Assembly: GCA_002215675.1 (NCBI GenBank)
Contig: NGFH01000009.1
Location: 485,501-549,500, forward strand
Source: Bacteroidetes bacterium 2013_40CM_41_45
GTDB taxonomy: Bacteria; Bacteroidota; Bacteroidia; AKYH767-A; 2013-40CM-41-45
Length of the DNA stretch: 64,000 nt
Direction of reading: 5' to 3'
The notes under the pieces are model-generated. The model saw only the letters and a program-made list of their open reading frames with translations, was not told the DNA's origin and did no database searches. Position 1 is the stretch's first letter. Each line of letters opens with the position of its first letter. Positions 13,106-53,235 of the stretch are shown here, piece by piece. A program made the translations under genes and the position numbers.

Positions 13106-13188
13106 AGTAAATAAGTTATATGTTATTAGTTATACGGAAATAACGATAAACTATACACATAATCATAAATCGTAAATCTAAAATCGTA
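13106..13188. repeat. Dispersed AT-rich spacer repeat
   Basis: Spacer between two minus-strand genes. Bases 13111-13145 (ATAAGTTATATGTTATTAG, then TTATACGGAAATAACG) match 53161-53187 with one small indel. Bases 13169-13188 (ATCGTAAATCTAAAATCGTA) are the exact reverse complement of 37428-37447. The last nine bases of the metallo-hydrolase reading frame lie within the repeat. Confidence 0.7.
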
Positions 13189-14023
13189 CATCAGCCAGCG
13201 GCATCACTTTATCTTCTCGCACTCCCCTCTCCGTCATTTTCAGAGTGCAGCTGTCATTGATTCTGTCGTGCTCAAAAAATAAAATATAATTTTCTTTGAC
13301 AGCATGTTCAAGAAATAACTTTTTTTCCTCGAGAGTTACCAGCGGGCGCATGTCATACGCCATCACGAAAGGAACGGGAATGTGACCGACTGACGGAATC
13401 AGGTCAGCCATATAGACAAGTGTTTTTCCATTGAAAGAAATATGCGGAAGCATCATCGCTTCCGTATGCCCGTAAACGCAAAACACCTTGAAGCCGGGAA
13501 ATAATTCTTCCCCGTCATCAATAAATTTCAGATGCCCGCTTTCTTCAATGGGCAAAATATTTTCTTTCAGGAACGATGCCTTTTCTCTCGCATTCGGATT
13601 CACCGCGCTCCTCCAGTGCTTTTCGTTGCTCCAGTAGGTTGCATTGGGAAAAGTAAGCTCATAACCGGTTTTGTCTTTGTTCCACTTCACACTTCCACCG
13701 CAATGGTCGAAATGAAGATGCGTAAGAAATACATCGGTGATATCTTCAGGGGCAAAGCCATTTTTCTTCAACGACTTTTCAAGCGTATCATCACCATGGA
13801 GATAATAATAGCTCAGAAATTTTTTATCCTGCTTCTCACCTATTCCATTATCAATCAGCACCAGCCGGTTTCCTTCCTGCACAAGCAGACAACGCATCGC
13901 CCATGTGCACATATTATTTTCATCGGCAGGATTCAGTTTGTTCCAAATGCTTTTTGGAACTACGCCAAACATAGCTCCGCCATCAAGCTTAAAAAATCCC
14001 GTATCAATTGTAAATAATTTCAT
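13178..14023 (-). CDS. MBL-fold metallo-hydrolase
   Basis: 281 residues. Zinc motif HLHFDHCGG at 102-110, later His/Asp ligands in YGHTEAMMLP and YMADLIP, His in LFFEHD near the end. The order fits the lactonase/glyoxalase II-like branch of the metallo-beta-lactamase superfamily; AHL-lactonase-like proteins share GxMFGVVPKxxWNK near the N-terminus. Substrate not predictable. The -7 box TAACTTTG lies 4 bases before the ATG, pointing to a leaderless mRNA. The final codons (V-R-F-stop) come from a spacer repeat, so the true C-terminus in relatives may differ. Confidence 0.9.
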   Translation of the reverse strand: MKLFTIDTGFFKLDGGAMFGVVPKSIWNKLNPADENNMCTWAMRCLLVQEGNRLVLIDNGIGEKQDKKFLSYYYLHGDDTLEKSLKKNGFAPEDITDVFLTHLHFDHCGGSVKWNKDKTGYELTFPNATYWSNEKHWRSAVNPNAREKASFLKENILPIEESGHLKFIDDGEELFPGFKVFCVYGHTEAMMLPHISFNGKTLVYMADLIPSVGHIPVPFVMAYDMRPLVTLEEKKLFLEHAVKENYILFFEHDRINDSCTLKMTERGVREDKVMPLADVRF

Positions 14024-14027
14024 GGTG

Positions 14028-14035
14028 CAAAGTTA
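14028..14035 (-). promoter_or_regulatory. -7 promoter box (TAACTTTG) of metallo-hydrolase gene
   Basis: Exact TAnnTTTG match on the minus strand, 4 bases from the start codon; -33 element not recognisable. Confidence 0.5.
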
Positions 14036-14058
14036 TAAAGCAATGCGAGAGGATTTAT

Positions 14059-15114: not shown

Positions 15115-15121
15115 GCGTGCG

Positions 15122-16951: not shown

Positions 16952-16978
16952 AGAACCAATTTCATTATTGAATATAAA

Positions 16979-20464: not shown

Positions 20465-20481
20465 CTTATGAATTTGAAGTG

Positions 20482-21919: not shown

Positions 21920-21929
21920 CGTTTAATCT

Positions 21930-32286: not shown

Positions 32287-32361
32287 TGGGAGCAACAGGG
32301 TTCGAACCTGTGACCCTCTGCTTGTAAGGCAGATGCTCTGAACCAGCTGAGCTATGCTCCC
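32287..32361 (-). tRNA. tRNA-Val (anticodon TAC)
   Basis: 75 bases. Acceptor GGGAGCA/TGCTCCC, D arm GCTC...GAGC, anticodon stem TCTGC/GCAGA with loop CTTACAA (anticodon TAC), T arm ACAGG-TTCGAAC-CCTGT, discriminator A. CCA is not encoded. Confidence 0.95.
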
Positions 32362-35740: not shown

Positions 35741-35768
35741 TTTCGTATTCGGTTAATAGTTCGGAGAA

Positions 35769-36764: not shown

Positions 36765-36804
36765 GTGTGTTTATGTTTAGAATTTAGGGTTTATGATTAA
36801 TTTT

Positions 36805-37410
36805 TTACTTAGAATATAATTCGACAATGAGGTGTTCTCTTATATTTTCTGAAATCTGGTCGCGTGCGGGAACGCTGATAAATTTTCCGGTCAGCGTTGC
36901 TTTATCAAATTCAAGCCACGAACTTTTTGTTGAACGTGAAAGAACAGTGTTTACAATAACTTCAAGTGATTTCGAACGCTCTCTCACGGCAATAATATCT
37001 CCCGGTCTCAATGTGTAAGAAGAAATATTCACCACTTTTCCGTTCACCGTAATGTGCCTGTGCCCTACAAGTTGACGGGCTGCCATACGTGTAGGGGCAA
37101 TTCCTAAACGGTACACCACATTATCCAGCCGCGATTCAATTAATTGCAAAAGGGTTTCTCCCGTTATACCCGTCTTTCTGGAAGCGCGGTCAAATATTTT
37201 TGCAAACTGCCTTTCCAAAATTCCATAGGTATATTTTACTTTCTGCTTTTCCATTAGCTGAACTGCATACTCGCTTTGCTTGCCTTTCTTTTTCGAAATG
37301 CCGTGTTGTCCCGGAGGATAGCTTTTCTTTTCAAAGCTCTTATCGGCTCCGAAAATCGGTTCTCGGAATCTGCGCGCTATGCGTGAACGGGGTCCTGTAT
37401 ATCTTGCCAT
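36805..37410 (-). CDS. rpsD: Ribosomal protein S4
   Basis: 201 residues, zinc-free form (no N-terminal Cys cluster). S4 domain [31 protein letters not shown]. Primary 16S rRNA binder; in other bacteria S4 represses the alpha operon, and rpsM-rpsK-rpsD-rpoA order is kept here. Confidence 0.98.
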
Positions 37411-37420
37411 TTTTATTACT

Positions 37421-37450
37421 TACGATTTACGATTTTAGATTTACGATTTG
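37421..37450. repeat. ATTTACG-type spacer repeat
   Basis: TACGATTTACGATTTTAGAT then TTACGATTTG in the rpsK-rpsD spacer. Bases 37428-37447 are the exact reverse complement of 13169-13188. Confidence 0.75.
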
Positions 37451-37867
37451 TTAAACGCGTCTCTTTTTAGGAGGACGACAACCATTATGAGGTATTGGAG
37501 TTATGTCTATGATTTCAGAAACCTCAATCCCTGCCTGGCTGATAGTCCGTATTGCTGATTCTCTTCCGCCACCGGGTCCCTTAACATATACTTTTACCTT
37601 GCGCAATCCCAAATCAAATGCTGCCTTTGCGCAATCACCTGCTGCCATCTGCGCTGCATAAGGCGTATTCTTTTTTGAACCGCGGAAACCCATCTTGCCT
37701 GCCGATGACCAGCTTATAACCTGCCCTGCCTCGTTCGTCAAGGTGACGATAATGTTATTGAACGTAGCAGACAGGTATGCTATTCCGGTTGCGTCAACTT
37801 TCACAGTGCGCTTGCGGGCTGCCTTTACTTTTTTTTCCTGTGCTGTTTGCTGTTGTTGCTGTGCCAT
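37451..37867 (-). CDS. rpsK: Ribosomal protein S11
   Basis: 138 residues. Core [21 protein letters not shown] and C-terminal [18 protein letters not shown] are characteristic. An N-terminal Gln run (AQQQQQTAQ) is a small lineage feature. Platform protein of the 30S subunit. Preceded by a spacer with ACTGATTACTGATTACTTG reiteration. Confidence 0.98.
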
Positions 37868-37943
37868 TTTTTTAAGTATTCAGTTTTCAGCTTTCCGTTC
37901 GGTCTTAAACTGGTTACTCCGAACTGATTACTGATTACTTGTT

Positions 37944-38324
37944 TTACATTTTAGTTGCTTTCTTTTTATTCGCTACTGTCTTGCGTTTTCCTTTACGGGT
38001 GCGGCTATTATTTTTTGTGCGTTGTCCTCTTACCGGCAGCCCCAGTCTGTGACGTGAGCCACGGTAACAATTAATGTCGATAAGCCGCTTGATGTTAAGC
38101 TGAACTTCAGAACGAAGCGCTCCCTCCACTTTTACTTTTTCAGTAATGATAGAGCGGATTTTAGTAAGCTGGTCATCGTTCCAGTTTTCCACTTTGGTAT
38201 CCTGGTCGACTCCTGCTTCGTCAAGAATTTCTTTTGCGGTAGAGGGGCCTATACCGAATATGTACGTAAGGCCTACTACTCCTCTTTTATGCCTGGGAAG
38301 GTCTACTCCTGCTATGCGTGCCAT
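37944..38324 (-). CDS. rpsM: Ribosomal protein S13
   Basis: 126 residues; [24 protein letters not shown] start and [27 protein letters not shown] end. Head protein contacting the P-site tRNA and the 50S bridge. Confidence 0.98.
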
Positions 38325-38356
38325 TGTTTAAGTTATGTGTTTTTTATAATTATAGT

Positions 38357-38473
38357 TCAACCCTGGCGCTGCTTAAAGCGTGGGTTCTTTTTATTGATGA
38401 CGTAAAGCACTCCTCTTCTGCGGACAATTTTGCACTCAGGACTGCGTTTTTTTATAGATGGTTTTACTTTCAT
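38357..38473 (-). CDS. rpmJ: Ribosomal protein L36
   Basis: 38 residues, too short for the track: [20 protein letters not shown] opening and [14 protein letters not shown] end. Only one Cys remains, so it is the zinc-free form. Lies between infA and rpsM, its usual place. Confidence 0.96.
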
Positions 38474-38482
38474 TTCTCAAAT

Positions 38483-38701
38483 CTATTTGTACCTGTATAT
38501 TATTCTTCCTTTTGTTAAATCATAAGGCGACATTTCAATCTTAACTTTATCTCCCGGCAAAATTCTTATGTAGTGCATCCTCATCTTTCCCGAAATGTGC
38601 GCAATAATCTGGTGCCCGTTTTCAAGTTCCACCCTGAACATGGCATTCGACAATGCTTCGGTAATGGTTCCGTCCTGCTCTATGTTTGCCTGTTTCGCCA
38701 A
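38483..38701 (-). CDS. infA: Translation initiation factor IF-1 (TTG start)
   Basis: 72 residues, single S1-type OB fold: [49 protein letters not shown]. The start codon is TTG, encoding the conserved MAKQ...IEQDG N-terminus; no in-frame ATG lies upstream before the spacer. Rare start codons on initiation factor genes can give feedback control, as known for infC (AUU); whether that applies here is untested. Confidence 0.96.
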
Positions 38702-38759
38702 CTGGTTGTTTTAAGTTATTTAATATTTAGTCTCCCAACTCCGAACCCCTTACTCCCTA

Positions 38760-39551
38760 CTATATTGTTACTTCTTTATTTTTTTGTAATACTTCCTCAA
38801 TAAATTGAAACGTTGATAAAATCTCTGCCCCCTCTTTTCTCACCGCAACAGTATGCTCAAAATGCGCTGAAGGCATTCCGTCTGAAGTACGAATCGTCCA
38901 TCCGTCTTTATCTTGCGTCACATTTCTTTTCCCCATATTTATCATCGGCTCAATGGCGATAGTCATATTTTCCAGCAGCGTTTTTCCCGAACCGGGCTTA
39001 CCATAATTCGGTATTTCCGGTTTCTCATGCAATTGCTTTCCTATTCCGTGCCCCACTAATTCTCGCACTACAGAGAACCCATTGCTTTCTGCATGCTCCT
39101 GCACAGCATGACTGATGTCGCCTATCCTTTTCCCCGCTACTGCATTTTCAATCCCCCGGTACAAGCATTCTTTCGTTACCTTCAAAAGCCGTTTCACTTT
39201 TTCGTCTGCTTCCCCGATGATAAACGTATATGCCGAGTCACCGAAATACGCATTCATCACAACCCCGCAGTCAACTGAAACAACATCTCCTTCCCGCAGC
39301 ACATAATTTCCCGGTATTCCATGCACCACCTGTGAATTAACAGATACACAAATAGATGCAGGGTAATTTTTAAAACCCTTGAAGGCAGGAATCCCGCCGT
39401 GGCTACGGATGAATTCGTCTGCAATCACATCCATACTTGCCGTTGTTATTCCCGGTCTAAGTATCTGGGCTACCGCTGCAATTGTTTTTCCAACAAGTAA
39501 AGAACTTTGTTTTATTAACTCTATCTCCTCGTCACTCTTATATTTTGTCAT
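38760..39551 (-). CDS. map: Methionine aminopeptidase type I
   Basis: 263 residues from ATG 39551 (MTKYKSDEEIELIKQSS); the tracked start five codons upstream is TTG. Metal ligands: Asp in VSVDCGVV, Asp in YFGDSAYTF, His in GHGIGKQLHEKPEIPNYG, Glu in AIEPMINMG, and the last Glu in SAHFEHTVAV. Removes the initiator Met from nascent proteins, in keeping with its place between secY and infA. Confidence 0.97.
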   Translation of the reverse strand: MTKYKSDEEIELIKQSSLLVGKTIAAVAQILRPGITTASMDVIADEFIRSHGGIPAFKGFKNYPASICVSVNSQVVHGIPGNYVLREGDVVSVDCGVVMNAYFGDSAYTFIIGEADEKVKRLLKVTKECLYRGIENAVAGKRIGDISHAVQEHAESNGFSVVRELVGHGIGKQLHEKPEIPNYGKPGSGKTLLENMTIAIEPMINMGKRNVTQDKDGWTIRTSDGMPSAHFEHTVAVRKEGAEILSTFQFIEEVLQKNKEVTI

Positions 39552-39599
39552 CTCATGCTGAACCAAAGAGCGTTTAATTTAATTCTGCAACTGTAGAAA

Positions 39600-40958
39600 T
39601 TATGAAGCAACAGCAGCAGGCGTACTTCTTCCCTTTATTCGTCCTGATTTGAGCAATCCATCGTAATGGCGCATCAGCAGGTGACTTTCTATCTGCTGCA
39701 ACGTATCCAGAACCACACCTACAAGAATCAGCAGTGATGTTCCGCCATAGAAGCGCGCAAAATTATTGGTGACTCCTGCCATGATAGCGAATGCGGGAAG
39801 TATAGCAATAGCTGCAAGGAAGAATGAACCCGGCAGCGTAATTCTTGAAATTACATTATCAATAAAATCATGCGTTTTGCGTCCGGGTTTAACTCCGGGA
39901 ATATATCCTCCATTGCGCTTCATATCCTCTGCCATCTGGGTTGGATTAACAGAGATTGCTGTATAGAAATACGTGAAGATGATGATGAGAAATGCAAACG
40001 TGAAGTTATAACCGAACGAAGTAATGTTTCCAAACGTGGTGATGATTCCCTGCGAAGCGTACGCGTCGGGGAAAAATTGGGCAATCGTTGCCGGAATAAA
40101 CATGATAGCTTGTGCAAAAATGATAGGCATAACACCGGCAGCATTCACCTTGAGCGGAACATATTGCCGCACTCCGCCATATTGCTTGTTGCCTATAATC
40201 TTTTTAGCAAACTGAACGGGTATCCTTCGGGTTCCCTGCACCATCATAATCACTCCCGCAATGATGGCACCGAGTAATAATATCTCAACTAAGAACACAA
40301 CCATACCACCTGAATCGAGTCGTGAAAGAAATTCGTCACGCAACGCATGCGGAAGGCGAGCAATGATTCCCACCATGATGATGAGAGAAATTCCATTACC
40401 GATTCCTTTTTCCGTTATTCGTTCACCCAGCCACATCACGAAGATGGTGCCTGCGATAAGAATAACGATGGACGTAAACCAGAAGGTGAACGGGGAAACT
40501 AACTCGGGATTTGTGACGGAGATAATTGCATTGGGAACCTGCGCGCGTAAATTCACAATATACCCGGGCGCCTGGCCGGCACAAATAAGCACGGTGAGGT
40601 AACGGGTAAACTGGTTGATTTTTTTTCTGCCGCTCTCCCCTTCCTTCTGCAACTTTTGAAAATAAGGGATAGCAATTCCTAAAAGCTGAACAACAATAGA
40701 AGCGGAGATGTACGGCATAATTCCAAGCGCAAAAATGGATGCGTTTGAAAACGCTCCTCCTGCAAACATATCGAGGAGGCCGAGGATTCCTTCGGAAGTT
40801 TGCCTGTGCAGCTGACCTAATTTTTCAGGGTCTACTCCGGGCAAAACAATATGGCTTCCAAGACGGTAAATAACAAGGAAGCCCAGCGTTGCCAATATCC
40901 TGAAACGCAGGTCTTCGATCTTGAAGATATTCCGAATTGTATTTATAAGATTCTTCAT
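39600..40958 (-). CDS. secY: Protein translocase subunit SecY
   Basis: 452 residues, ten transmembrane helices. LATLGFLVIYRLGSHIVLPGVDPEKL start, plug-region GGAFSNASIFALGIMPYISASIVVQLL, and GERITEKGIGNGISLIIMVGI. Forms the Sec channel with SecE and SecG. 3 bases downstream of rplO (ATG at 40958 overlaps the rplO stop region at 40955, a 4-base overlap). Confidence 0.98.
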   Translation of the reverse strand: MKNLINTIRNIFKIEDLRFRILATLGFLVIYRLGSHIVLPGVDPEKLGQLHRQTSEGILGLLDMFAGGAFSNASIFALGIMPYISASIVVQLLGIAIPYFQKLQKEGESGRKKINQFTRYLTVLICAGQAPGYIVNLRAQVPNAIISVTNPELVSPFTFWFTSIVILIAGTIFVMWLGERITEKGIGNGISLIIMVGIIARLPHALRDEFLSRLDSGGMVVFLVEILLLGAIIAGVIMMVQGTRRIPVQFAKKIIGNKQYGGVRQYVPLKVNAAGVMPIIFAQAIMFIPATIAQFFPDAYASQGIITTFGNITSFGYNFTFAFLIIIFTYFYTAISVNPTQMAEDMKRNGGYIPGVKPGRKTHDFIDNVISRITLPGSFFLAAIAILPAFAIMAGVTNNFARFYGGTSLLILVGVVLDTLQQIESHLLMRHYDGLLKSGRIKGRSTPAAVAS

Positions 40959-41404
40959 TTGATTATTTCTGCTTTGCCTCCCTTAGCTTCAATTGCTGTT
41001 TTTGCAGATTGAGAAAATGCGTGTGCTTTAACATTGAACGCTGAAGTAAGCTCGCCTCTGCCCAATATTTTTATCCGTTGTTTTTTTCTTGCCAACCCGT
41101 GCTTCACCAGCAATTCAATATCTATATCTTTTAATTTATGAGTGTCGGCAAGCTTTTGCAGAGTATCTAAATTGATTCCGCTGAACTCGACACGGAAAGG
41201 ATTTTTGAATCCGAACTTGGGAACCCTGCGCTGCAAGGGCATCTGGCCGCCTTCGAAGCCGCGCTTAATGGTTGTACCCGAACGTGACCCGGCACCTTTA
41301 TGCCCGCGGGTGGAAGTTCCACCGTGACCGGAACCTTCGCCCCTTGCGATACGTTTTTCTTTTTTAACCGAGCCCTTTGCCGGCTTTAAACTATGCAGAT
41401 TCAT
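40955..41404 (-). CDS. rplO: Ribosomal protein L15
   Basis: 149 residues: MNLHSLKPAKGSVKKEKRIARGEGSGHGGTS (Gly-rich N-terminal extension reaching the 23S core) and GRGELTSAFNVKAHAFSQSA. Overlaps secY by four bases. Confidence 0.98.
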   Translation of the reverse strand: MNLHSLKPAKGSVKKEKRIARGEGSGHGGTSTRGHKGAGSRSGTTIKRGFEGGQMPLQRRVPKFGFKNPFRVEFSGINLDTLQKLADTHKLKDIDIELLVKHGLARKKQRIKILGRGELTSAFNVKAHAFSQSAKTAIEAKGGKAEIIK

Positions 41405-41405
41405 T

Positions 41406-41594
41406 TTAATTGCTCTTAGTGTTTTCTATTGTAACCAGGTGCCTGACAATTGAAATCATCCCGTTGATTTGAGGTGTCTCTTTATGTTCAACCGTTTTAT
41501 ACAGATGAGTTAACCCCAGTGCATGAAGGGTTTTCTTTTGCCTGACAGGGCAATGAATTCCACTCTTGGTCAACGTGATTTTAATCGTGCTCAT
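41406..41594 (-). CDS. rpmD: Ribosomal protein L30
   Basis: 62 residues, normal size: KITLTKSGIHCPVRQKKTLHALGLTHL followed by MISIVRHLVTIE. One base from rplO. Confidence 0.97.
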   Translation of the reverse strand: MSTIKITLTKSGIHCPVRQKKTLHALGLTHLYKTVEHKETPQINGMISIVRHLVTIENTKSN

Positions 41595-41607
41595 TTCAAA
41601 ATATATT

Positions 41608-42126
41608 TCAACCGTTAAAAACTCTTTCCATTTTTACTCCGCGCTGTTGTGCAACTCCTATTGCATCGCGCATCTTCAACAATGCATCAATAGTTGCCTT
41701 CACCACATTGTGCGGGTTCGATGAACCTTTTGATTTTGCAAGCACGTCTGTAACTCCAACACTTTCCAACACTGCGCGCATAGCGCCACCTGCAATAACA
41801 CCGGTTCCGGGAGCCGCCGGTTTAAGATATACTAATGCTCCTCCAAACTTTCCATATTGCTCATGAGGAACCGTTCCCTTAAGTACAGGTACGCGTACAA
41901 GGTTCTTCTTGGCGTCATCAATTCCTTTCGAAACCGCATCTGCAACTTCTTTTGATTTTCCCAAACCGTGTCCTACTACACCGTGCTCATCACCCACAAC
42001 AACAATGGCGGAAAAACTAAATGCTCTTCCTCCTTTGGTTACTTTGGTAACGCGCTGTACGCTCACCAAACGGTCTTTCAATTCAATCTCGCTTGACCTG
42101 ACTCGTTTTATATTTATCATTGACAT
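41608..42126 (-). CDS. rpsE: Ribosomal protein S5
   Basis: 172 residues. Double-stranded-RNA-binding N-terminal part ([31 protein letters not shown]) and C-terminal [31 protein letters not shown]. Involved in mRNA entry and decoding fidelity. Confidence 0.98.
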
Positions 42127-42142
42127 ACCTTATCTTTTTAAA

Positions 42143-42496
42143 TCAGAATTTTAATCCACCTTCGCGCGCACCGTCTGCCAGCGCTTTAACGCGGCCATGA
42201 TACAAGTATCCTCCCCTGTCGAACACAACGGATGTGATTCCTGCACCGATGGCTTTTTCTGCCAATTGCTTTCCCACTTTAGTTGATATCTCAACTTTTT
42301 TTCCTTTTGTTTTAAATCCTTTTTCGCGCGAAGATGCAGCAACCAGTGTGGTTCCGCTTGCATCATCTATAATCTGTGCATAGATGTCTTTATTGCTTCT
42401 GTAAACTGCAAGGCGCGGCCTTTCGGGAGTGCCTTTAAGTTTCATGCGAATCCTGAAACGGATTTTATTTCTGCGTAATGATTTTTTTGCTTTCAT
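42143..42496 (-). CDS. rplR: Ribosomal protein L18
   Basis: 117 residues from ATG 42496; a GTG one codon upstream is the tracked start. [38 protein letters not shown] and [26 protein letters not shown]. Binds 5S rRNA with L5. Confidence 0.97.
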
Positions 42497-42500
42497 CACT

Positions 42501-43058
42501 TTATTGTTTTGCTGCCGACTTTCCGGCTTTTCTTCTCAACACTTCGTTTACAAACTTTATTCCTTTTCCTTTGTATGGCTCGGGCTCGCGCAGCGAACGG
42601 ATTTTCGATGCTACCTGTCCAAGCAATTGCTTATCTGCACTCTCGAGAATAATCATTGGGTTTTGTCCCTTGTCCTGCTTGGTCACTAATTTAATTTCTG
42701 CCGGAAGCTCAAACACTATATGGTGTGCATAACCAAGAACTAGGTCAAGTGTTTGTCCCTGGCTCGATGCGCGGTAACCAACGCCCACAAGTTCCTGCTC
42801 AATTTTAAATCCTTTCGAAACACCGCTCACCATATTATTGAACAGAGCGCGGTACAATCCATGCAGCGCTTTGGTTCTCTTATCATCTCCACCGCGCGAT
42901 ACTTTAATATTTCCGTCAGCAATTTCAACTTTAATAGATGGGTCTACTTTCTGCGTAAGATTTCCTTTCGGCCCCTTTACAGTGACCGTATTATTTCCAT
43001 CCACAGATACTTCAACCTTGGGCGGAATTGCTACGGGAAGATTTCCTATTCGTGACAT
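42501..43058 (-). CDS. rplF: Ribosomal protein L6
   Basis: 185 residues with the two repeated L6 domains: [34 protein letters not shown] and [30 protein letters not shown]. The upstream spacer carries the GTTTAGA repeat. Confidence 0.98.
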
Positions 43059-43070
43059 TTTAAATTCTGA

Positions 43071-43105
43071 GTTTAGTGTTTAGAGTTTAGAGTTTAGAGT
43101 TTAAT
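43071..43105. repeat. GTTTAGA heptamer reiteration in rpsH-rplF spacer
   Basis: Five units: GTTTAGT, GTTTAGA three times, GTTTAAT. The rest of the spacer continues with TGATACTCTATACCTTGTAC-type words. Confidence 0.85.
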
Positions 43106-43145
43106 GCTCTTTTCTTAAGACTTGATACTCTATACCTTGTACTTT

Positions 43146-43544
43146 TTAATACACATAACAAATTACTTCACCCCCCACATTCTGTCTCTTCGCTTCTTTG
43201 TTCGTCATAACTCCTTTTGAAGTCGACAGGATAGCAATTCCCAAGCCATTCAAAACTCGTGGCAGATTGTCAGCATCTGCATACTTTCTCAAGCCCGGCC
43301 TGCTTATTCTTGACAGTTGCCTCATAGATGGCATCTTGGTAACGGGGTTATATTTCAATGCAATCTTAATCATGCCCTGGGGGTGTCCCTCTTCTTCAAA
43401 GCGGTAATCGTGAATGAATCCCTGCTCTTTCAGGATTCGTGTAATCTCTTTCTTTAATCCTGAAGCCGGAATTTCAACAACACGGTGATTTGCCCGCACT
43501 GCGTTGCGTACTCGTGTTAAATAATCTGCTATTGGGTCAGTCAT
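43146..43544 (-). CDS. rpsH: Ribosomal protein S8
   Basis: 132 residues: [33 protein letters not shown] and [31 protein letters not shown]. In E. coli S8 represses the spc operon; no target helix was identified here. Confidence 0.98.
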
Positions 43545-43571
43545 CTTTTTTTTTCGGTTTACAATTTTTTA

Positions 43572-43841
43572 TTACCAGCTTGCTTTGGTTATTCCGGGAA
43601 TCTTTCCTTCCAGGGCCATGAGGCGGAAGAAGTTTCTTGATACTCCAAACTGGCGGATATAGCCACGCGGCCTGCCCGATAATTTGCAGCGGTTGTGCAC
43701 GCGCACCGGTGATGCATTGCGCGGAAGTTTCATTAACCCGGCATAGTCGCCTGCCGCCTTTAGAGCAGCGCGTTTAGTGGCGTACTTTGCAACAGTCCTG
43801 ATGCGTTTCAGTTCTCTTGCTTTGATTGATTCTTTAGCCAT
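43572..43841 (-). CDS. rpsN: Ribosomal protein S14
   Basis: 89 residues, the long zinc-independent form: [28 protein letters not shown] and [33 protein letters not shown]. Only one Cys. Confidence 0.98.
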
Positions 43842-43863
43842 TATTAATTCTTAATTTTTAATT

Positions 43864-44415
43864 TTAATTTTTTCTGAATGGAATTCCAAATTCTTTCATC
43901 AATTCCATCGCTTCCTCATCTGTTTTTGCTGTGGTAACAAATGTTATATCCAAACCGGTAATCTTTGGTACTTTATCAATATCAATTTCAGGAAAAATAA
44001 TTTGCTCATTGATGCCGAGCGTATAATTGCCTCTTCCGTCAAATCCTTTTTCACTGATGCCTCTGAAGTCACGGATGCGGGGTAATGCAACGGCAATAAG
44101 GCGGTCAAGAAATTCGTACATCATTTTGTCGCGCAGCGTTACGCGGACTCCAATCGGCACATGTGCACGCAGCTTGAAATTCGAAATATCTTTTTTCGAT
44201 TTCGTTGTAACCGGTTTCTGTCCCGTGATAACCGTAATTTCCAGTAGTGCTGACTCAATAAGTTTTTTATCGGCAGTTGCTCCACCTACTCCCTGGTTAA
44301 TGCAGATTTTTTCAAGACGCGGAACCTGCATTACGCTTTTATATTTAAAGCGATTTTTAAGAGCAGGAACAATTTCGTCCTTGTATTTTGATTTTAATCT
44401 TGGCGTGTAGCTCAT
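43864..44415 (-). CDS. rplE: Ribosomal protein L5
   Basis: 183 residues: [35 protein letters not shown] and [31 protein letters not shown]. 5S rRNA binder. The start overlaps the rplX stop by 4 bases (ATGA type). Confidence 0.98.
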
Positions 44416-44750
44416 GACTTAATTACCTCCCCTGATTTTTTTGAATAACGTACCAGTTTATCGTCTTCCAGTCTTCTTCCAACGCGGGTAGCATTTCCTT
44501 TCGCATCAATCAGCATAAGATTCGAGATATGGATTGCAGCTTCTTTTTTTACAATTCCTCCCTGTGTATTCTGCGAGGTAGGACGGGTATGCTTTGTAGC
44601 AACATTCACTCCTTCAACAAATGCCCTTCTCTCTGCCGGTACAACAGAAAGAACTCTTCCTTGCTGCCCGCGATAGTCACCTGCAATTACCCTTACAATA
44701 TCTCCCTTGCGGATATTTAATTTCGGTTGTTTATTTTTTCTTCTTTCCAT
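44412..44750 (-). CDS. rplX: Ribosomal protein L24
   Basis: 112 residues. KOW motif [24 protein letters not shown], then [34 protein letters not shown]. Early assembly initiator of the 50S subunit. Confidence 0.97.
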
Positions 44751-44808
44751 CTTACGGATAACGAATTTTCTTTTAATTTTTAATTCTGCATTCTTAATTC
44801 TTAATTTC

Positions 44809-45177
44809 TTATAACACTTCGGGTGCGAGAGAAATAATTTTCATGAATTGTTTTTCACGAAGCTCCCTTGCAACCGGTCCGAAAATACGTGTGCCTCTCA
44901 ACTCATCATTTGCCTGCAGAAGCACTACGGCATTATCATCGAAGCGGATATACGAACCGTCATTCCTGCGCACTTCTTTTTTTACTCTCACCACCACGGC
45001 TTTGGTAACGGTTCCCTTCTTTATGCTTCCCGAGGGAATAGCATGCTTTACGGTGACAACTATTTTATCTCCCAAAGAAGCATAGCGTCTTTTGGTTCCT
45101 CCCAAAACACGGATACACAGCACTTCCTTGGCTCCGCTGTTGTCGGCTACTGTTAATCTCGATTCCTGTTGTATCAT
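44809..45177 (-). CDS. rplN: Ribosomal protein L14
   Basis: 122 residues, universal length: [27 protein letters not shown] and [29 protein letters not shown] spacer of 58 bases with TTAATTC/TTAATTTTTAA words separates it from rplX. Confidence 0.98.
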
Positions 45178-45216
45178 ATACTTGTGTAGAGTTATTGACT
45201 TTTTTAAACACTAACT

Positions 45217-45510
45217 TTATTTCACTTTTTCAATAACTTCAACCAGCCGCCAGTTTTTATTCTTGCTCATCGGGCGAGTTTCCATAATGCGTACACGGTC
45301 TCCGACAGAGCATTCATTTTTTTCATCGTGCGCCATAAATTTTTTAGTCCTCTTGATGAACTTGCCGTATTTGGCATGGCGCAGCTTTCTCTCTACAATA
45401 ACAACAATAGATTTCTGCATCTTGTTGCTCACCACAATCCCGATTCTTTCCTTGCGGAAGTTCCGTGACGGCTTTGTTTCTGCCTGGGTTATTTCAGCGG
45501 TTTCAGTCAT
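45217..45510 (-). CDS. rpsQ: Ribosomal protein S17
   Basis: 97 residues: [45 protein letters not shown] and [26 protein letters not shown]. An N-terminal stretch of about 18 residues ([18 protein letters not shown]) precedes the conserved core. Confidence 0.97.
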
Positions 45511-45522
45511 TGATAATTTTAA

Positions 45523-45717
45523 TTATTTATCTTTTCTTTTTGTCAGTTCTGTTTCCATCCGTGCAATCCCTTTGCGGACGCTGCGGATTTTTATAGGGTT
45601 CTCAACGGGCGAAACAGCATGGCTCATTCTTAATTTAATAAGCAGCGTACGCTCTTCTGCAAGGCGTGACTTGAGTTCACCAGTCGATAATTCCTTTATG
45701 TCGTCCTGTTTGATCAT
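45523..45717 (-). CDS. rpmC: Ribosomal protein L29
   Basis: 64 residues, two-helix protein: IKELSTGELKSRLAEERTLLIKLRMSHAV and NPIKIRSVRKGIARMETELTKR. Located near the tunnel exit. Confidence 0.96.
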   Translation of the reverse strand: MIKQDDIKELSTGELKSRLAEERTLLIKLRMSHAVSPVENPIKIRSVRKGIARMETELTKRKDK

Positions 45718-45745
45718 TGTTAATTTGATATTTGAAATTTGAGGT

Positions 45746-46168
45746 TTACTCTCCTCCGTAATCTCTCCTCACAATAAACTTAGTATTCACTCCCAGCTTT
45801 TGAGCTGCGAGCCGCAGGCCTTCACGAGCCATTGCTTTAGTTACACCTTCCGCTTCAAAAATTATCGTACCCGGTTTTACTACGGCAACAAAATATTCAG
45901 GAGCTCCTTTGCCTTTTCCCATACGTACTTCAAGCGGTTTTTTCGTTATCGGTTTGTCCGGAAAAATTCTACACCACAACATTCCATCGCGTTTCATGTA
46001 CCGCGTAACCGCAACGCGTGCTGCTTCAATCTGCTTTTCGGGAAGCCAGCCCGTTTCGAGAGATTTAATTCCAAACGAACCGAAAGCAAGTGTATTGCCG
46101 CGTGTTGCATTGCCCTTGGCAAGCATCTTATGCATCTTCCTGAACTTGGTTTTCTTCGGTTGTGCCAT
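45746..46168 (-). CDS. rplP: Ribosomal protein L16
   Basis: 140 residues: [37 protein letters not shown] and [15 protein letters not shown]-like [19 protein letters not shown]. Contacts the A-site tRNA elbow. Confidence 0.98.
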
Positions 46169-46173
46169 TGTTA

Positions 46174-46240
46174 TTTCGGATTTCGGATTCTGGATTTCGG
46201 ATTTATAATTCGCAATTTAAAATCCGCAATTCGCAATCCT
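46174..46240. repeat. GGATTTC reiteration in rpsC-rplP spacer
   Basis: TTTCGGATTTCGGATTCTGG then ATTTCGGATTTATAATTCGC, followed by ATCCGCAATTCGCAATCC. The word TTTCGGATTTCGGATT recurs in the rplB-rplW spacer (48897-48916). Confidence 0.8.
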
Positions 46241-46276
46241 TACATTTTATTTATTCTTCGTTCTACATTAAATTTA

Positions 46277-47083
46277 TTATGTTCTTTCTCTTCTGTCTGA
46301 TCGTCCCCCTCTGTCACCACCGCGTTCACCTCCTCTTCGGTCGCCTCTGTCACCGCGTCCCCCTCTGCGAGGTCTTTCATTTCCCTGTTCTTGCCCGAAT
46401 GCCGGCTTATTAAATCTTGCTGCACCGGTCATTCCAATATTCGGAGACAGGTCGCGTTTACCGTAAACTTCTCCCCTGCAAATCCATACTTTCACTCCTA
46501 TGAGCCCGTACGTTGTGAGCGCTTCTGATATTGCAAAATCTATATCAGCTCTGAACGTGTGAAGAGGAATTCTTCCTTCTTTATACTGCTCTCTCCGTGC
46601 TATTTCAGCTCCTCCCAATCGTCCTGAAGTCATGATACGCACGCCCTGTGCGCCCACTCTCATGGTAGATGCAATTGCAGTCTTGATAGCTCTGCGGAAT
46701 GAGATGCGCGCTTCAATCTGCCGTGCAACTCCGTCTGCAACCAATTTTGCATCCAGCTCCGGGCGTTTTATTTCGAATATGTTTATCTGTATATCTTTTC
46801 CTGTAATTTTTTTCAACTCCTCTTTAATCTTGTCAACTTCCTGCCCTCCTTTTCCAATCACAATTCCCGGGCGAGCGGTATTGATGGTTACCGTAATCAG
46901 CTTCAGGGTACGTTCAATAACTATTTTTGAAACACCGCCTTTTGCGAGACGTGCATTCAGGTACTTGCGGATTTTTTCGTCCTCAACAAGTTTGTCGGCA
47001 TAATTTCTTCCGCCATACCAGTTTGAATCCCATCCCCTGATGATACCGAGCCGGTTGCCTATTGGATTAGTTTTTTGTCCCAT
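46277..47083 (-). CDS. rpsC: Ribosomal protein S3 with RGG-rich C-terminal tail
   Basis: 268 residues; the usual S3 is about 210-240. KH domain [20 protein letters not shown] and C-terminal domain [30 protein letters not shown] are intact. From about residue 235 an Arg/Gly/Asp tail ([18 protein letters not shown]) of some 33 residues is added, an RGG-like sequence suited to RNA contact at the mRNA entry side of the 30S subunit. Confidence 0.97.
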
Positions 47084-47132
47084 TAATTTTTTTTAAGTTG
47101 ACTTTGATTTTTTCGTTTGACTTATAATTTTT

Positions 47133-47579
47133 TTACGCTGTAACTGCTTCTTTTTCTTCCTGCTCTACTTCCTGAACTTGTTCTTTCTTCTCGTATGAAT
47201 CAAGAATTAAAGTAACATGATTCGAGCGCTTACGGATGCGGTAACCTCTTCCTTGCGGTGCCGGCCTTAAACGTTTCAACTGTCTTCCTCCATCTACAAA
47301 AATGGTTTGCACAAATGCTTTGCCTTCGTCAATCTTAGCGCCCGATTTACTTTCCCAGTTTGAAATTGCAGAACGAAGAAGTTTCTCAAGCGGCCTTGCA
47401 GGAAGCTTATCAGAAAATTTCAGAATGTTCAATGCCTTAAAGACTTCTTTGCCGCGAATTAAATCCGCAATAAGGCGCATCTTTCTTGGTGATGACGGAT
47501 AATTTTTCAGCCGCGCAACGGCAACATTTTTCATTGCCTCCTTTCGTGCATCAGCCGAATTTCTTTTACGTGCTCCCAT
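47133..47579 (-). CDS. rplV: Ribosomal protein L22
   Basis: 148 residues: [35 protein letters not shown] and [25 protein letters not shown]; the hairpin loop narrows the exit tunnel. Glu-rich C-terminal end ([12 protein letters not shown]). Confidence 0.98.
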
Positions 47580-47599
47580 CGCTTATTATATTTTACTTC

Positions 47600-47637
47600 T
47601 ATTTTTCTCGTATAACTTATAACGAATAACTATTAAC
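47600..47637. repeat. CGTATAACTTATAAC-type spacer repeat
   Basis: rpsS-rplV spacer holds CGTATAACTTATAAC followed by GAATAACTATTAAC. The 15-mer recurs exactly at 53202-53216. Confidence 0.7.
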
Positions 47638-48015
47638 TTACTTAGCGGGAGGTGTTGAAGGCGCTGCTGCAGGGGCCGCTGCCGGAGCTGCTCCGGGCGA
47701 TTGCGGTACTCCTCCACCTGACGGTGCTGCGGCTGCCGCTGCTTCTTCCTCTTTCACTCTCGTGCTGTGTCCGCGGAAAATTCGTGTAGGTGAAAATTCT
47801 CCGAGCTTGTGCCCAACCATATTCTCGGTAACATAAACGGGAACATGCGTTTTACCGTTGTGAACTGCAATGGTGAGCCCTACAAAATCAGGAGAGATAA
47901 TACTTCTCCTTGACCAGGTTTTAATAACGGTCTTTTTCTTTGAGCCGCCCATCTTGAGAATTTTTGCCTCTAGTGATGCGTCAATGTAGGGACCTTTTTT
48001 AAGTGAACGTGCCAT
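47638..48015 (-). CDS. rpsS: Ribosomal protein S19 with Ala/Pro/Gly-rich tail
   Basis: 125 residues against about 88-92 normally. Residues 1-88 are a standard S19 ([43 protein letters not shown]). After [11 protein letters not shown] comes a 35-residue low-complexity tail of Ala, Pro and Gly ([16 protein letters not shown]). S19 sits in the 30S head near the A-site finger bridge, where its C-terminus contacts tRNA, so an extension is notable. Confidence 0.97.
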
Positions 48016-48063
48016 GTAAAATAGTTATCAGTTATCTGTTACTGGTTATTCGTTTAGTTCAGA

Positions 48064-48891
48064 TTATTTTTTTCTTCTTCTTTCTACAATAAATTTATCT
48101 GACTGTCTTTTTCCTCTTCTTGTCTTGTATCCCTTAGCAAGTAATCCTTTGCGCGAGCGCGGATGTCCTCCTGATGCTCTTCCTTCTCCTCCGCCCATGG
48201 GATGATCAACAGGATTCATGGCCACACCACGGTTTCTTGGCCTGCGGCCTATCCAGCGGCTGCGCCCTGCTTTACCTAAGCTTTCCTGGTTATGGTCAGG
48301 ATTTGAAACCGTACCGATGGTTGCGAGGCATGCCGTAAGCACCATTCTTGTTTCACCCGAAGGCAATTTCAGCGTAGCGTATTTTCCTTCACGAGCTAAA
48401 AGCTGCGCATAGCTTCCGGCTGACTTAGCCATCTTTCCGCCTTGTCCCGGACGTAATTCAATATTATGAATCAATGTTCCGAGGGGAATATCTTTTATGT
48501 AAAGCGCATTTCCGATTTCCGGTTCTGCATTGGTTCCCGACATAATTTTCTGCCCTACATTCAATCCGTTCGGAGCAATGATGTAGCGCTTCTCTCCGTC
48601 CTGGTAAAACACCAATGCAATACGCGATGTTCTGTTCGGGTCATATTCAACCGTCTTCACTATTCCTTCCACACCAAATTTCTCACGCTTAAAGTCAATA
48701 ATGCGGTACATCCTTTTGTGGCCTCCGCCAATGTAGCGCATGGTCATCTTCCCTGAAGCATTTCTTCCTCCGGTCCGTTTTATTTTGACCACCAAAGATT
48801 TCTCAGGACGATTAGTAGTAACATCGTTGTAATCGTCACGGATGATAAACCGCTGCGATGGTGTTATGGGTCTTAATTTATGTACTGCCAT
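48064..48891 (-). CDS. rplB: Ribosomal protein L2
   Basis: 275 residues: [23 protein letters not shown] start, peptidyl-transferase-proximal [25 protein letters not shown] with the conserved His, and [20 protein letters not shown] end. Confidence 0.98.
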
Positions 48892-48896
48892 TTCTT

Positions 48897-48989
48897 TATT
48901 TCGGATTTCGGATTTAAAATTTCGGATTTAAAATCCTTAATATGCAATCCAATTTTATTTTTTAATTCTCAATTTTCAATTCTCTACTT
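48897..48989. repeat. TTTCGGATT reiteration in rplB-rplW spacer
   Basis: ATTTCGGATTTCGGATTTAA, AATTTCGGATTTAAAATCC, then TTAATTCTCAATTTTCAATTC. Two word types in one 98-base spacer. Confidence 0.8.
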
Positions 48990-49280
48990 TTATATGCTGC
49001 TATAGAAATCTATCGTTTCTCCTTTTTTCAACTGCACGATTGCTTTTTTAAAATTATTTTTTCTTCCTGCTATAACACCTGACTTGGTAGAGCGTGACTT
49101 TCTTTTTCCTGAATAGCGCATGGTACGCACGTCTTCAACGGTAACGCTGTACATTTTTTCTACTGCCGATTTTATCTGCAGCTTGTTTGCAGAAACATCT
49201 ACAATAAAACCATAACGTCCCAGCTTTTCTGACTGAGCCGTCATTTTTTCGGTAACAACAGGCCTTCTAAGTATGTTCAT
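48990..49280 (-). CDS. rplW: Ribosomal protein L23
   Basis: 96 residues: [44 protein letters not shown] and [15 protein letters not shown]. Docking site for trigger factor and SRP. Overlaps rplD by 4 bases. Confidence 0.97.
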
Positions 49281-49924
49281 TTCAATAATGTTTTTTCAAT
49301 AACAGGTACTGCGCTTTCAACCAGAACCAAATCCTGTGCGTTCAGCACATCGTAGGTATTAAGGTCTGCCGCGCGGCTTACCTTATTCTTCTTAAGATTC
49401 CGCGATGACAACAGGAGGTTCCTGTTCAGCTCCGCAGTCAGCAATAAGACTTTTTTATCCTCAAGCTTCAGCCCTTTCATCACGTTTAAAAATTCCTTTG
49501 TCTTCGGTTGGTCAAGATTGAAATCTTCCACCACGTGAATCGATTTATCTTTTGCTTTGTATGTAAGTGCAGACAACCGTGCAAGCGTCTTAACTTTTTT
49601 ATTGAGTTTGAAACCGTAATCACGCGGCTGCGGTCCGAAAATTCTTCCGCCTCCTCTGAAGAGCGGATTTTTTATACTTCCCTTACGAGCGCCACCGGTT
49701 CCTTTTTGCCTGTGAAGTTTTCTTGTTGAGCCGGCAATTTCGTTTCTCTGTTTCGACTTGTGCGTTCCCTGCCTGCGGTTCGCCATGTGCTGTTTCACAT
49801 CAAGGTAAATGGCATGGTCATTCGGTTCGATGCCGAATATTTCCTTACTCAGCTTCACCTTTCTGCCGGTGTCTTTGCCGGTGATATCTACAACCGCTAC
49901 ACTTATGGTTTTACTTTCTGCCAT
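49277..49924 (-). CDS. rplD: Ribosomal protein L4
   Basis: 215 residues: [46 protein letters not shown] (tunnel loop) and [27 protein letters not shown]. In E. coli L4 autoregulates the S10 operon. Confidence 0.97.
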
Positions 49925-49932
49925 CGCCTTAA

Positions 49933-50550
49933 TTATTTTTCAATCAATACATATGAACCTTTTGCACCGGGAACCGCTCCTGATATCAAAAGAAGATTCT
50001 GCTCAGGTACAATTTTTACCACTTTAAGATTTTGTAACTTAACCCTGTCGCCACCCATTCTTCCTGCCATCCTCATTCCTTTAAGAACCCGTGACGGAAA
50101 AGAAGATGCACCAATAGAACCCGGTGCGCGCTGACGATCGTGCTGACCGTGTGTTTGCTTACCCACTCCACCAAAGCCGTGACGTTTTACTACGCCCTGG
50201 AATCCTTTTCCTTTCGATGTTCCGATCACGTCAACAAAATCTCCTTCTACAAACAAGGACACATCTAACACATCACCAAGATTATGTTCGGTTGCAAAAT
50301 CTCTGAACTCTGCGACTTTTCTTTTCGGTGTTGTTTTTGCTTTTGCAAAATGACCTTTCAATGCGCTGGTAGTTCTCTTTTCCTTCTTCTCATCAAAGGC
50401 AAGTTGCAGCGAAGAATATCCGTCAGAATCTTTTGTCTTGACTTGCGTAACCACACAAGGGCCGGCATGGATTACCGTACAGGCAACATTCTTGCCGTCT
50501 GCACTGTAAATGCTGGTCATTCCTATTTTCTTTCCTATTAATCCGGACAT
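49933..50550 (-). CDS. rplC: Ribosomal protein L3
   Basis: 205 residues: [34 protein letters not shown] and [40 protein letters not shown]. Its long loop reaches the peptidyl-transferase centre. Confidence 0.98.
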
Positions 50551-50639
50551 GTTATTGTGAGTATTGTGTCTTATCTATTAAGTATTATGATTCCTAATTT
50601 CTCATTGTACATCGTACTTCATACTTTGTACTTTCTCCA

Positions 50640-50945
50640 TCACACTTTTATTTCCACTTCCACTCCGCTCGGTAATTCCAGCTTCATCAACGCATCAACA
50701 GTTTTTGATGACGTACTGTATATATCAAGCAACCGTTTGTATGAACACAGTTGAAATTGTTCGCGCGCCTTTTTATTAGCATGGGGCGAACGAAGCACCG
50801 TGTAAATCCTTTTGTTGGTAGGCAATGGAATTGGTCCGCTAACCAATGCCCCGGTTGATTTTACCGTCTTAACAATTTTCTCAATCGACTTATCAACCAG
50901 GTTGTAGTCGTATGATTTTAATTTGATGCGTATTCGCTGGTTCAT
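50640..50945 (-). CDS. rpsJ: Ribosomal protein S10 (NusE)
   Basis: 101 residues: [51 protein letters not shown]. Also the NusE subunit of antitermination complexes. The spacer to rplC has TACTTCATACTTTGTACTTT words. Confidence 0.98.
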
Positions 50946-50972
50946 GGGAAGTATTTAAAGAACGTATGATTA

Positions 50973-53093
50973 TTATGATACTGCTTTTTCTTTTATGCCT
51001 TTTGCTTTTGCAATGACTTCGTCTGCAAGCGCGCGTGGAACTTCTGCATAATGCGAGAACTCCATCGTAGAACTTGCACGGCCCGAAGTAATTGTTCTCA
51101 ACGTGGTCACGTATCCGAACATCTGTGATAACGGAACTTTCGCTTTGATTACCTGTGCACCTGCACGTGTATCCATTCCTTCAAGATGGCCTCTTCGTTT
51201 ATTTAAATCTCCCATCACATCTCCCATATAAATATCAGGGGTTACAACTTCTACTTTCATAATCGGTTCAAGCAACACCGGTTTTGCCTTAGGTGCAGAT
51301 TCGCGAAATGCAATCTTGGCGCAAAGTTCAAACGAGAGCGAATCGGAGTCAACGCTGTGATACGAGCCGTCAAACAACTCAACTTTCATCGAGTCAACGG
51401 GGTAGCCGGCAAGCACTCCTGTATTCATAACCGAAGCAAATCCTTTTTCAACAGCAGGAATAAATTCTCTCGGAATATTTCCGCCCGTAACTTCATTCTC
51501 AAACTGGAGTCCGCCATGTTCTTTTGCAATCCATTCTGCATCGGCAGGGCCGATGTGAAACTGTATGTCCGCAAATTTTCCGCGACCACCCGTTTGCTTT
51601 TTATAAACCTCGCGATGCTTAACCGTGTGCGTGAGTGTTTCTTTATATGCAACCTGAGGAGCACCCTGGTTACATTCAACTTTAAATTCCCTCTTAAGGC
51701 GGTCAACAATAATTTCGAGGTGAAGCTCACCCATTCCTGAAATAACAGTTTGTCCTGTTTCCTGGTCGGTATGAACTCTGAATGTTGGGTCTTCTTCAGC
51801 CAGCTTTGCCAAAGCCATTCCAAGCTTGTCAACATCTGCCTGCGTTTTTGGTTCAACAGCCAAACCGATAACCGGCTTGGGAAAACTCATGGTCTCAAGA
51901 CGAATCGGATGATCCGGGTCGCACAATGTGTCTCCTGTTTTTATGTCTTTGAAACCAACGGCTGCTGAAAGGTCTCCCGCTTCAATACTGTCAACCGGGT
52001 TTTGCTTGTTAGCGTGCATGCGGATAATGCGCGATATGCGCTCGTTCTTCATTGTTCTCGTATTAAGAACATAAGAACCTGCATCCAGCTTTCCTGAATA
52101 CACTCTGAAAAATGCAAGACGGCCAACAAACGGGTCGGTCATTATTTTAAATGCAATCGCTGAGAACTTATCTTTCGGGTCGGGGCTTCTTGTTTCTTCT
52201 TTTCCTGTTTCAGGATTTACTCCTGTCACCGGTTCAAGGTCAAAGGGAGCGGGAAGATATTGTATTACCGCATCGAGCATGGCTTGCACTCCTTTATTCT
52301 TGAATGCTGAACCGCACAGGATAGGAGTAATCTTCAATGCAATAGTTGCCTTACGAATAGCGGTGCGCAATTCTTCGGCAGTGATGGAATCAGGATTTTC
52401 AAAAAACTTTTCCATCAGGTGGTCATCAAATTCCGCAACCGATTCAACAAGCTGCGCCCTCCAGTGAAGCACATCTGCTTTCATATCAATCGGCACAGGG
52501 ATTTCGGTAAAAGTCATTCCCTTCGTTGCTTCATCCCAGATGAACGCTTTATTCGAAATCAAATCAACCACGCCTTTAAACATTTCTTCAGAACCAATGG
52601 GAAGCTGAAGAGGTACGGGACGTGCATGCAAGCGCTCTTTTATCTGGTGAACTACACTGATAAAATTCGCTCCTGCCCTGTCCATTTTATTTACAAAACC
52701 AATGCGGGGAACTTTATATTTATTCGCCTGCCTCCAAACCGTTTCCGATTGTGGCTCCACTCCTCCTACTGCGCAAAACAAAGCGACAGCTCCATCAAGC
52801 ACGCGAAGCGAACGTTCCACTTCAACAGTAAAGTCAACGTGGCCGGGAGTATCTATAATGTTGATTTTATATTTATCGTTATCGTAACTCCAATACGTAG
52901 TTGTAGCAGCAGATGTAATTGTAATTCCGCGCTCCTGCTCCTGAACCATCCAATCCATCGTTGCAGCACCCTCATGCACCTCGCCCATTTTATGCGTAAT
53001 ACCGGTGTAATACAGGATGCGTTCGGTCGTAGTTGTCTTACCCGCATCTATATGCGCCATAATTCCTATATTTCTTGTATGCTTTAAATCCAT
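50973..53093 (-). CDS. fusA: Elongation factor G
   Basis: 706 residues. G1 [20 protein letters not shown]2 [12 protein letters not shown]3 DTPGHVDF, G4 [10 protein letters not shown]5 [10 protein letters not shown], then domains II-V (domain [21 protein letters not shown], domain [26 protein letters not shown]). GTPase driving translocation. Followed by rpsJ after 27 bases. Confidence 0.98.
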
Positions 53094-53150
53094 CTGTTGT
53101 TGCTCTCTTTCTATCTTATTCTATTTAATCTTTCTGAATTCTATTTTGCT

Positions 53151-53235
53151 GTTATACGTTATAAGTTATTTGTTATACGGAATAACGCTTTAGCAAACAG
53201 TCGTATAACTTATAACATGTAACATATAACTTGTC
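53151..53235. repeat. GTTATA-type spacer repeat with inverted 12-mer
   Basis: rpsG-fusA spacer. GTTATAAGTTAT (53158-53169) and its reverse complement ATAACTTATAAC (53205-53216) could fold. Bases 53161-53187 match 13111-13145 apart from a short indel. Confidence 0.75.

Follow-up and report, generated by a model that had tools for sequence, protein, structure and literature searches.

Intergenic heptamers are the commonest short tandem DNA repeats of prokaryotic spacers, and their function is unexplained according to a global survey (PMC6344855). Among the systems described so far, the Xanthomonas heptamers GGGAATC, or more generally (GGGANTN)n, are intergenic and combine fixed and variable positions; four units are the commonest array size and each genome carries 70–75 inverted pairs (Rehm et al., 2015, PMC4692102). 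In Geobacter metallireducens, multicopy pairs lie on opposite strands at variable distance, each partner being an array of either four GTTGCTYN octamers or five MTYCTGA heptamers in tandem (PMC2700814). TAACTGA heptamers are found in Beggiatoaceae, Cyanobacteria and five Bacteroidetes, where they are intergenic and often stand immediately before start codons (PMC4679880). Tandem heptanucleotides (STRR) also occur in cyanobacteria, three of them in Calothrix, as cited in the Xanthomonas study (PMC4692102).

This work describes related arrays in a window of 64,000 nucleotides from the genome of Bacteroidetes bacterium 2013_40CM_41_45, in which a sequence-only reading had listed short AT-rich words common to distant spacers. 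These words are parts of small spacer elements whose arms consist mostly of four degenerate 7-bp units and are inverted when they lie close together; in other Bacteroidota the arms are built from units of 7 or 8 bp. The features of the window are as follows.

13106..13145, minus strand: GTATAAC-family arm adjoining the 11753-13105 gene immediately upstream of its start
13161..13192, minus strand: heptamer array of the AATCGTA family, which overlaps the final codons of the 13178-14023 ORF
35240..54156, minus strand: ribosomal protein cluster rpsL ... rplQ, with arrays in its spacers
37413..37449, minus strand: array of TTACGAT heptamers that fills the rpsK-rpsD spacer and contains the 20-mer matching 13169-13188
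37872..37939, minus strand: rpsM-rpsK spacer with two short heptamer arrays (37872-37895; 37923-37939, ACTGATT)
43071..43103, minus strand: five-unit TAAACTC array upstream of rplF
43844..43863, minus strand: TTAATTC array in the rplE-rpsN spacer
44771..44806, minus strand: AATTAAG/AATGCAG heptamer array in the rplN-rplX spacer
45723..45742, minus strand: TCAAATN array in the rplP-rpmC spacer
46173..46237, minus strand: rpsC-rplP spacer, in which a GATTGCG arm and an AAATCCG arm form a hairpin; contains TTTCGGATTTCGGATT
47609..47637, minus strand: lone four-unit arm immediately 3' of the rpsS stop, in the sense direction GTTAATA GTTATTC GTTATAA GTTATAC G
48023..48054, minus strand: GATAACT array in the rplB-rpsS spacer
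48898..48929, minus strand: AAATCCG array in the rplW-rplB spacer
48953..48984, minus strand: AATTGAR array in the rplW-rplB spacer, a mixed-family pair with 48898-48929
50558..50634, minus strand: rpsJ-rplC spacer with an AAGTANN array (50605-50634) facing a weaker partner
53151..53179, minus strand: first arm (in plus-strand order) of the rpsG-fusA element, (GTTATNN)4 on the plus strand, inverted partner of 53203-53230; NNATAAC when read in the sense of the operon
53180..53202, no strand: loop of the rpsG-fusA element (about 24 bases), with no relation to the remaining GTTAT-family loops
53203..53230, minus strand: second arm of the rpsG-fusA element, (NNATAAC)4 on the plus strand, inverted with respect to 53151-53179
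53748..53770, minus strand: AATTGAW array in the rpsL-rpsG spacer

The individual matches reported earlier are present in the sequence. Positions 13169-13188 are the reverse complement of 37428-37447 over 20 bases (ATCGTAAATCTAAAATCGTA); ATAAGTTAT..TTATACGGAA(A)TAACG occurs at 13111-13145 and at about 53161-53187, the 15-mer CGTATAACTTATAAC at 47609-47623 and 53202-53216, and TTTCGGATTTCGGATT in both the rpsC-rplP and the rplW-rplB spacers. One copy had been said to supply the last codons of a gene, and this is the case for the array at 13161-13192, since the 13178-14023 ORF ends within it. The earlier listing of words missed the 7-base tandem structure and the inverted pairing of several arrays.

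Autocorrelation reveals strong 7-base periodicity at 13 places of the window, versus none to three at the other periods from 3 to 15 (five at the harmonic, 14), and Tandem Repeats Finder independently reports numerous arrays of period 7 in these spacers, which identifies the listed words as pieces of degenerate heptamer arrays. Genome-wide counts were obtained from contig C1 together with a 357-kb part of contig C2, in all about 1.14 Mb or about one third of the 3.38-Mb genome; genes and starts were taken from a home-made caller based on a simple hexamer model, and spacers were compared with coding DNA. In this sample 110 arrays of period 7 lie in 119 kb of spacer, where dinucleotide shuffling yields 0.4, and 26 lie in the 1.02 Mb of coding DNA, which is 36 times fewer per base; unrelated periods from 2 to 20 give 0–6 arrays in spacers, the multiples of 7 being harmonics. 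Tandem 7-bp units confined to spacers are thus a property of this genome, and near-perfect repetition of one word is not found in it: the units are degenerate and several words coexist. The largest families are GTTATAC/GTTATAA/GTTATAT, followed by GTTAGAC, AAATCGT, the TTGGTCA-like GTCATTG, AAATCCG and others, and the same architecture is filled by GTTATNN, TTGGTCA and AAACTCT among further words. Of the earlier proposal of a dispersed repeat family, the dispersal and the confinement to spacers stand and the idea of one single family does not, as one architecture is written in many different words.

The spacers of the genome have 34% G+C, and DNA of this composition will yield a certain number of short matches. 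Chance nevertheless accounts for very little here: besides the array counts, a 22-base GTTAT signature has 58 copies and its reversed control 0, the genome-wide search for CGTATAACTTATAAC returns 22 copies in 3.38 Mb versus 0 for the reversed control, and the window spacers have nine 15-mers in common versus a mean of 0.5 in dinucleotide shuffles (maximum 7 in 100). On these counts the claim that the matches exceed chance is borne out, and an origin from chance words in AT-rich spacers is rejected, with practically no probability left to it.

The main family is built as (GTTATNN)4-G-loop-C-(NNATAAC)4, and the rpsG-fusA spacer (53151..53230) holds a complete element of arm, loop and arm. All close GTTAT pairs (24 of 24) are inverted, with GTTAT first and ATAAC second, and four is the modal number of units per arm (GTTAT/ATAAC set, 35 of 58). 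For roughly half of the GTTAT arms a partner was not detected. Positional entropy, calculated from arrays detected by autocorrelation with no reference to the core, is 0.60–0.98 at positions 1–5 of the GTTAT-family unit versus 1.25 and 1.67 at positions 6 and 7, and the unit on the loop side, GTTATACG, is nearly fixed while the outer dinucleotides vary. The loops, mostly 19–28 bases long, are unrelated between copies of the GTTAT family. Among arms no more than 40 bases away from a gene boundary, read in the sense of the gene, ATAAC precedes starts and GTTAT follows stops in 60 cases, with 5 exceptions, a pattern to be expected when a symmetric element occupies the spacer; most full pairs between co-directional genes occupy spacers of 85–111 bases, 0–16 bases from the stop and 4–17 from the start. 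Arrays are also present in divergent and convergent spacers, at rates not very different. When neighbouring arrays of all families are considered, 19 of 29 pairs match in inverted and one in direct orientation, versus a mean of 10.6 inverted matches with shuffled partners, and some pairs mix word families.

Whole-element copying, one of the two explanations offered earlier, is not seen in the window genome, where the loops bear no relation to one another and copies agree in unit order no more than a pool model gives; descent of the elements from one copied sequence family is rejected for this genome on those grounds. A loop serving as a guide or a homologous segment is rejected as well, the longest second matches of the loops being like those of random spacers. 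In the window genome GTTAT arms whose partners are swapped between elements fold as well as with their own partners (-21.58 versus -21.60 kcal/mol, p=0.46), so that no selection on pairing is visible outside the shared core. The variable dinucleotides of facing units show no covariation in these arms, either at register 0 or at one-unit shifts; shift -2, one of five tried, lies above the shuffles. Divergent-gene spacers with arrays are not unusually structured in this genome.

Arrays are concentrated in the ribosomal cluster, where, among co-directional spacers 28 bases or longer, they occupy 12 of 22 versus 67 of 419 elsewhere (odds ratio 6.3, p=7e-5), and are thus placed within the best understood operon of the cell. 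In the comparison with sister genomes suggested by the sequence-only reading, the orthologous ribosomal spacers of relatives, the closest of which belong to other genera, are mostly short and array-free, and a few genomes carry many arrays in words of their own, with units of 7 or 8 bases, where relatives' spacers are short and plain. Among 95 Bacteroidota ribosomal loci there are 61 arrays of period 7 and 19 of period 8, and the remaining periods between 5 and 11 together account for 5. The arrays are concentrated in a small number of genomes, among them L033, the window genome, L006, L055, L179 and L180. The clear hairpins of L033 and L006 are built from 7-base as well as 8-base units; in L033 copying does occur, as two adjacent hairpins have arms and loop in common. 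The 22-base GTTAT signature is present in 4 and 1 copies in two of 41 other genomes of the same order and in 0 copies in the remaining 39.

The rpsN-rpsH spacer of Pedobacter carries hairpins of different word families ahead of a conserved leader. The 66 loci compared, nearly all from Pedobacter, comprise AGTATC (26), ACGTTAG (15), AAAGCT (12), GTTATA (3) and 10 others, mostly short hairpins. On a tree of the flanking sequences the AAAGCT label requires 9 changes, all 9 being forced by well supported branches, and trees from the upstream or the downstream flank only require 12 family changes each. Near-identical AAAGCT alleles are found in three distant species (L270, L283 and L285), and the genes that flank the hairpin follow the species. 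Such label changes and scattered alleles beside flanking genes that track the species indicate that whole hairpins are exchanged or replaced in short tracts, for which ordinary homologous recombination acting in the conserved ribosomal genes would be enough. Hairpins of unrelated wording have thus been swapped at this site at least nine times on the species tree with pairing kept, the heptamer alleles folding at -27 to -42 kcal/mol across unrelated word families. In the AGTATC family 3 of 320 cells over 16 pairs are broken and two pairs have two-sided changes, which amounts to modest covariation. Other spacers show the same kind of hairpin replacement in four Pedobacter species. Pedobacter species without heptamer arrays also have rpsN-rpsH hairpins, so this hairpin could be peculiar to the site, with arrays occupying it by accident; the genus represents another family of the phylum, and what is deduced from it may not carry over to the window genome. 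The presence of alternative hairpins at one site in dozens of species constitutes a natural experiment on the role of the hairpin.

The explanation that is tentatively preferred, at a probability somewhat below an even chance, is that the elements act as intercistronic mRNA stem-loops serving insulation or processing; the role in RNA processing or stability suggested earlier is plausible. This explanation is favoured by the period 7 of spacers, the inverted matching of neighbouring arrays, the four-unit arms, the closeness of elements to stops and starts, the ribosomal enrichment, the plain orthologous spacers of most relatives and, in Pedobacter, the pairing kept through family switches and the near-identical alleles of distant species. 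The unit that matters would be the stem-loop, transcribed between cistrons and mostly inside operons, and the hairpin would insulate adjacent cistrons by blocking 3'-5' decay or by setting an endonuclease cut. Selection would keep a stem of roughly 28–32 bp at the site and not any sequence, which would allow the arms to be rewritten through slippage in 7–8-base steps and whole cassettes to be exchanged between genomes through recombination. The lack of arm covariation and the occurrence of arrays in divergent and convergent spacers lower the probability of this RNA-hairpin reading and give room to a protein that recognizes tandem units or to a mutational origin. Further points against it are the many GTTAT arms with no detected partner, the modest covariation in Pedobacter, the ordinary structure of divergent-gene spacers with arrays and the hairpins of array-free Pedobacter species. 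Of the two readings proposed at the outset, a copied element class and a function that keeps the words in spacers, either may be correct.

A functionless mutational product, in which slippage in 7–8-base steps and hairpin template switching generate inverted degenerate arrays, is considered rather unlikely. Such arrays would be tolerated only in spacers, since repeats whose period is not divisible by 3 disrupt reading frames, and the observed arrays are indeed almost confined to spacers and differ in loops and unit order between copies. The SbcD complex cuts long palindromes, and a search of 15 genomes gave no SbcD above the cut-off in 14; it is also absent from array-poor relatives, however, and present in the array-rich genome G146. 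Period 7 dominates the long simple repeats of bacteria and slippage has been proposed as the reason (Mrazek, 2007, as cited in PMC4679880), yet the number of units peaks at four with no fall-off, the loop-side unit is nearly fixed beside variable outer dinucleotides, and words recur genome-wide, with the signature almost missing from sister genomes. Arrays could instead be DNA sites for a nucleoid or regulatory protein that binds tandem 7–8-bp units cooperatively, as ribbon-helix-helix repressors do with heptads, the inversion looping or bridging spacers. A conserved core with variable last positions, four units per arm, arms without covariation and an orientation rule independent of gene direction all agree with this, and HU/IHF binding has been proposed for the similar Geobacter pairs (PMC2700814). 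The many unrelated words in one genome would nonetheless need many binding proteins, and words are replaced wholesale at one Pedobacter site; protein binding is held to be unlikely.

Still less probable is a spread of REP/MITE-like mobile elements by a transposase (e.g., the REP-associated Y1), with arrays as their ends. The expansion is specific to the genome, the arrays are insertions relative to the spacers of relatives, and the adjacent hairpins of L033 with common arms and loop fit mobility. Against it, the sole Y1_Tnp match in the window genome has an internal stop (TAA) and Y1 copy numbers do not follow arrays over 15 genomes; target-site duplication is not detectable, flank sharing equals that of shuffles, and loops are unrelated. 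No mobility gene tracking the arrays was found. Y1 transposase and SbcD loss are both rejected as causes, as neither separates array-rich from array-poor genomes, and carriage by phages or plasmids is rejected as well, the signature occurring in only 3 of 2.9 million viral contigs and matching no plasmid. Searches with Rfam covariance models gave only a tRNA in the window and no match at the Pedobacter site.

When compared with the known systems, the elements are an AT-rich, multi-word version of intergenic heptamer arrays. They appear to be new, although an earlier description in Bacteroidota is possible within the subscription literature, which lay mostly outside the search. REP/BIME and MITE sequences are likewise dispersed spacer palindromes in operons, but a conserved element sequence, target duplication or linked transposase is lacking here. 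With the TAACTGA repeats the elements have in common heptamer arrays in spacers and an occurrence in Bacteroidetes; the TAACTGA repeats differ in having one fixed word, with related words rarely in tandem, and in being nearly all direct, with one inverted case (PMC4679880). Several heptamer families within one genome are a trait common to these elements and the cyanobacterial STRR. One of the Calothrix heptanucleotides, TTGGTCA, forms arrays in the window genome too. Inverted pairing is common here, in contrast to Nostoc, where it is rare (PMC4692102).

The Geobacter metallireducens pairs resemble the present elements as multicopy inverted arrays of four or five short units; they differ in words and phylum and have been proposed as HU/IHF sites, the accessible text of that description reporting no bias towards ribosomal operons (PMC2700814). 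It is conceivable, if doubtful, that inverted pairs of about four degenerate 7–8-bp units form one general class across phyla (Bacteroidota, Xanthomonas, Geobacter), in which a dedicated activity would keep the build while words are rewritten and exchanged as cassettes. The similarity with the Xanthomonas GGGANTN repeats lies in the modal four units per array and in the inverted arrangement of close arrays. The Xanthomonas repeats are G-rich and have been studied as G-quadruplex formers, whereas the GTTATNN arms contain no GGG runs and, for want of G runs, cannot form quadruplexes, so that four units in inverted pairs need a non-quadruplex explanation here. AT-rich arms with the four-unit inverted build of the G-rich Xanthomonas repeats speak against G-quadruplexes as the general reason for that build.

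The window's own genome carries several kinds of dispersed or multicopy palindromic or inverted elements, which are listed here together with two features of the window (C1, one contig of this genome; C2, the 357 kb taken from a second contig).

C1 ~270538 and ~573444: scattered elements whose inverted arms are octamer-like, ACCACAGAGACACGGAGACACAG ... CTCTGTGCCTCTGTGGT
C1 27215, 76328 and 95043, C2 71797 and 158756: multicopy palindrome element CTAGGGTTTTCCCTAATTCGTACTAGGGTTTTCCCTAG, in spacers
C1 44179, 47714 and 703732, C2 90486 and 214455: multicopy mosaic palindromes TCCCGCTTTC..CGCTCCGG.TCAATCGGG
Window 59648-59673: array of AAAAGCC heptamers where genes 57187-59760 and 59726-60439 meet
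Window 32287-32361, minus strand: tRNA gene

The 8-base units are arranged in the same inverted build as the heptamer elements, and the mosaic palindromes are G+C-rich and REP-like. The AAAAGCC array lies outside the ribosomal cluster.

SbcD, whose complex cuts long palindromes, was not found over the cut-off in 14 of the 15 genomes tested (from this genome, the genomes G001-G022 and others), while the control set, Bacteroides included, gave a match; lack of this protein may permit long palindromes in the order to which the window's genome belongs.

In the rpsN-rpsH spacer of Pedobacter (ribosomal loci L021, L022 and L236-L295) a conserved leader, TTTTAACCGATAGCAGGTC...GGAAACCACTATC, with a variable apical hairpin precedes rpsH. 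An Rfam scan of this leader at five loci returned no matches; it is possibly an autoregulatory site of the S8 type.
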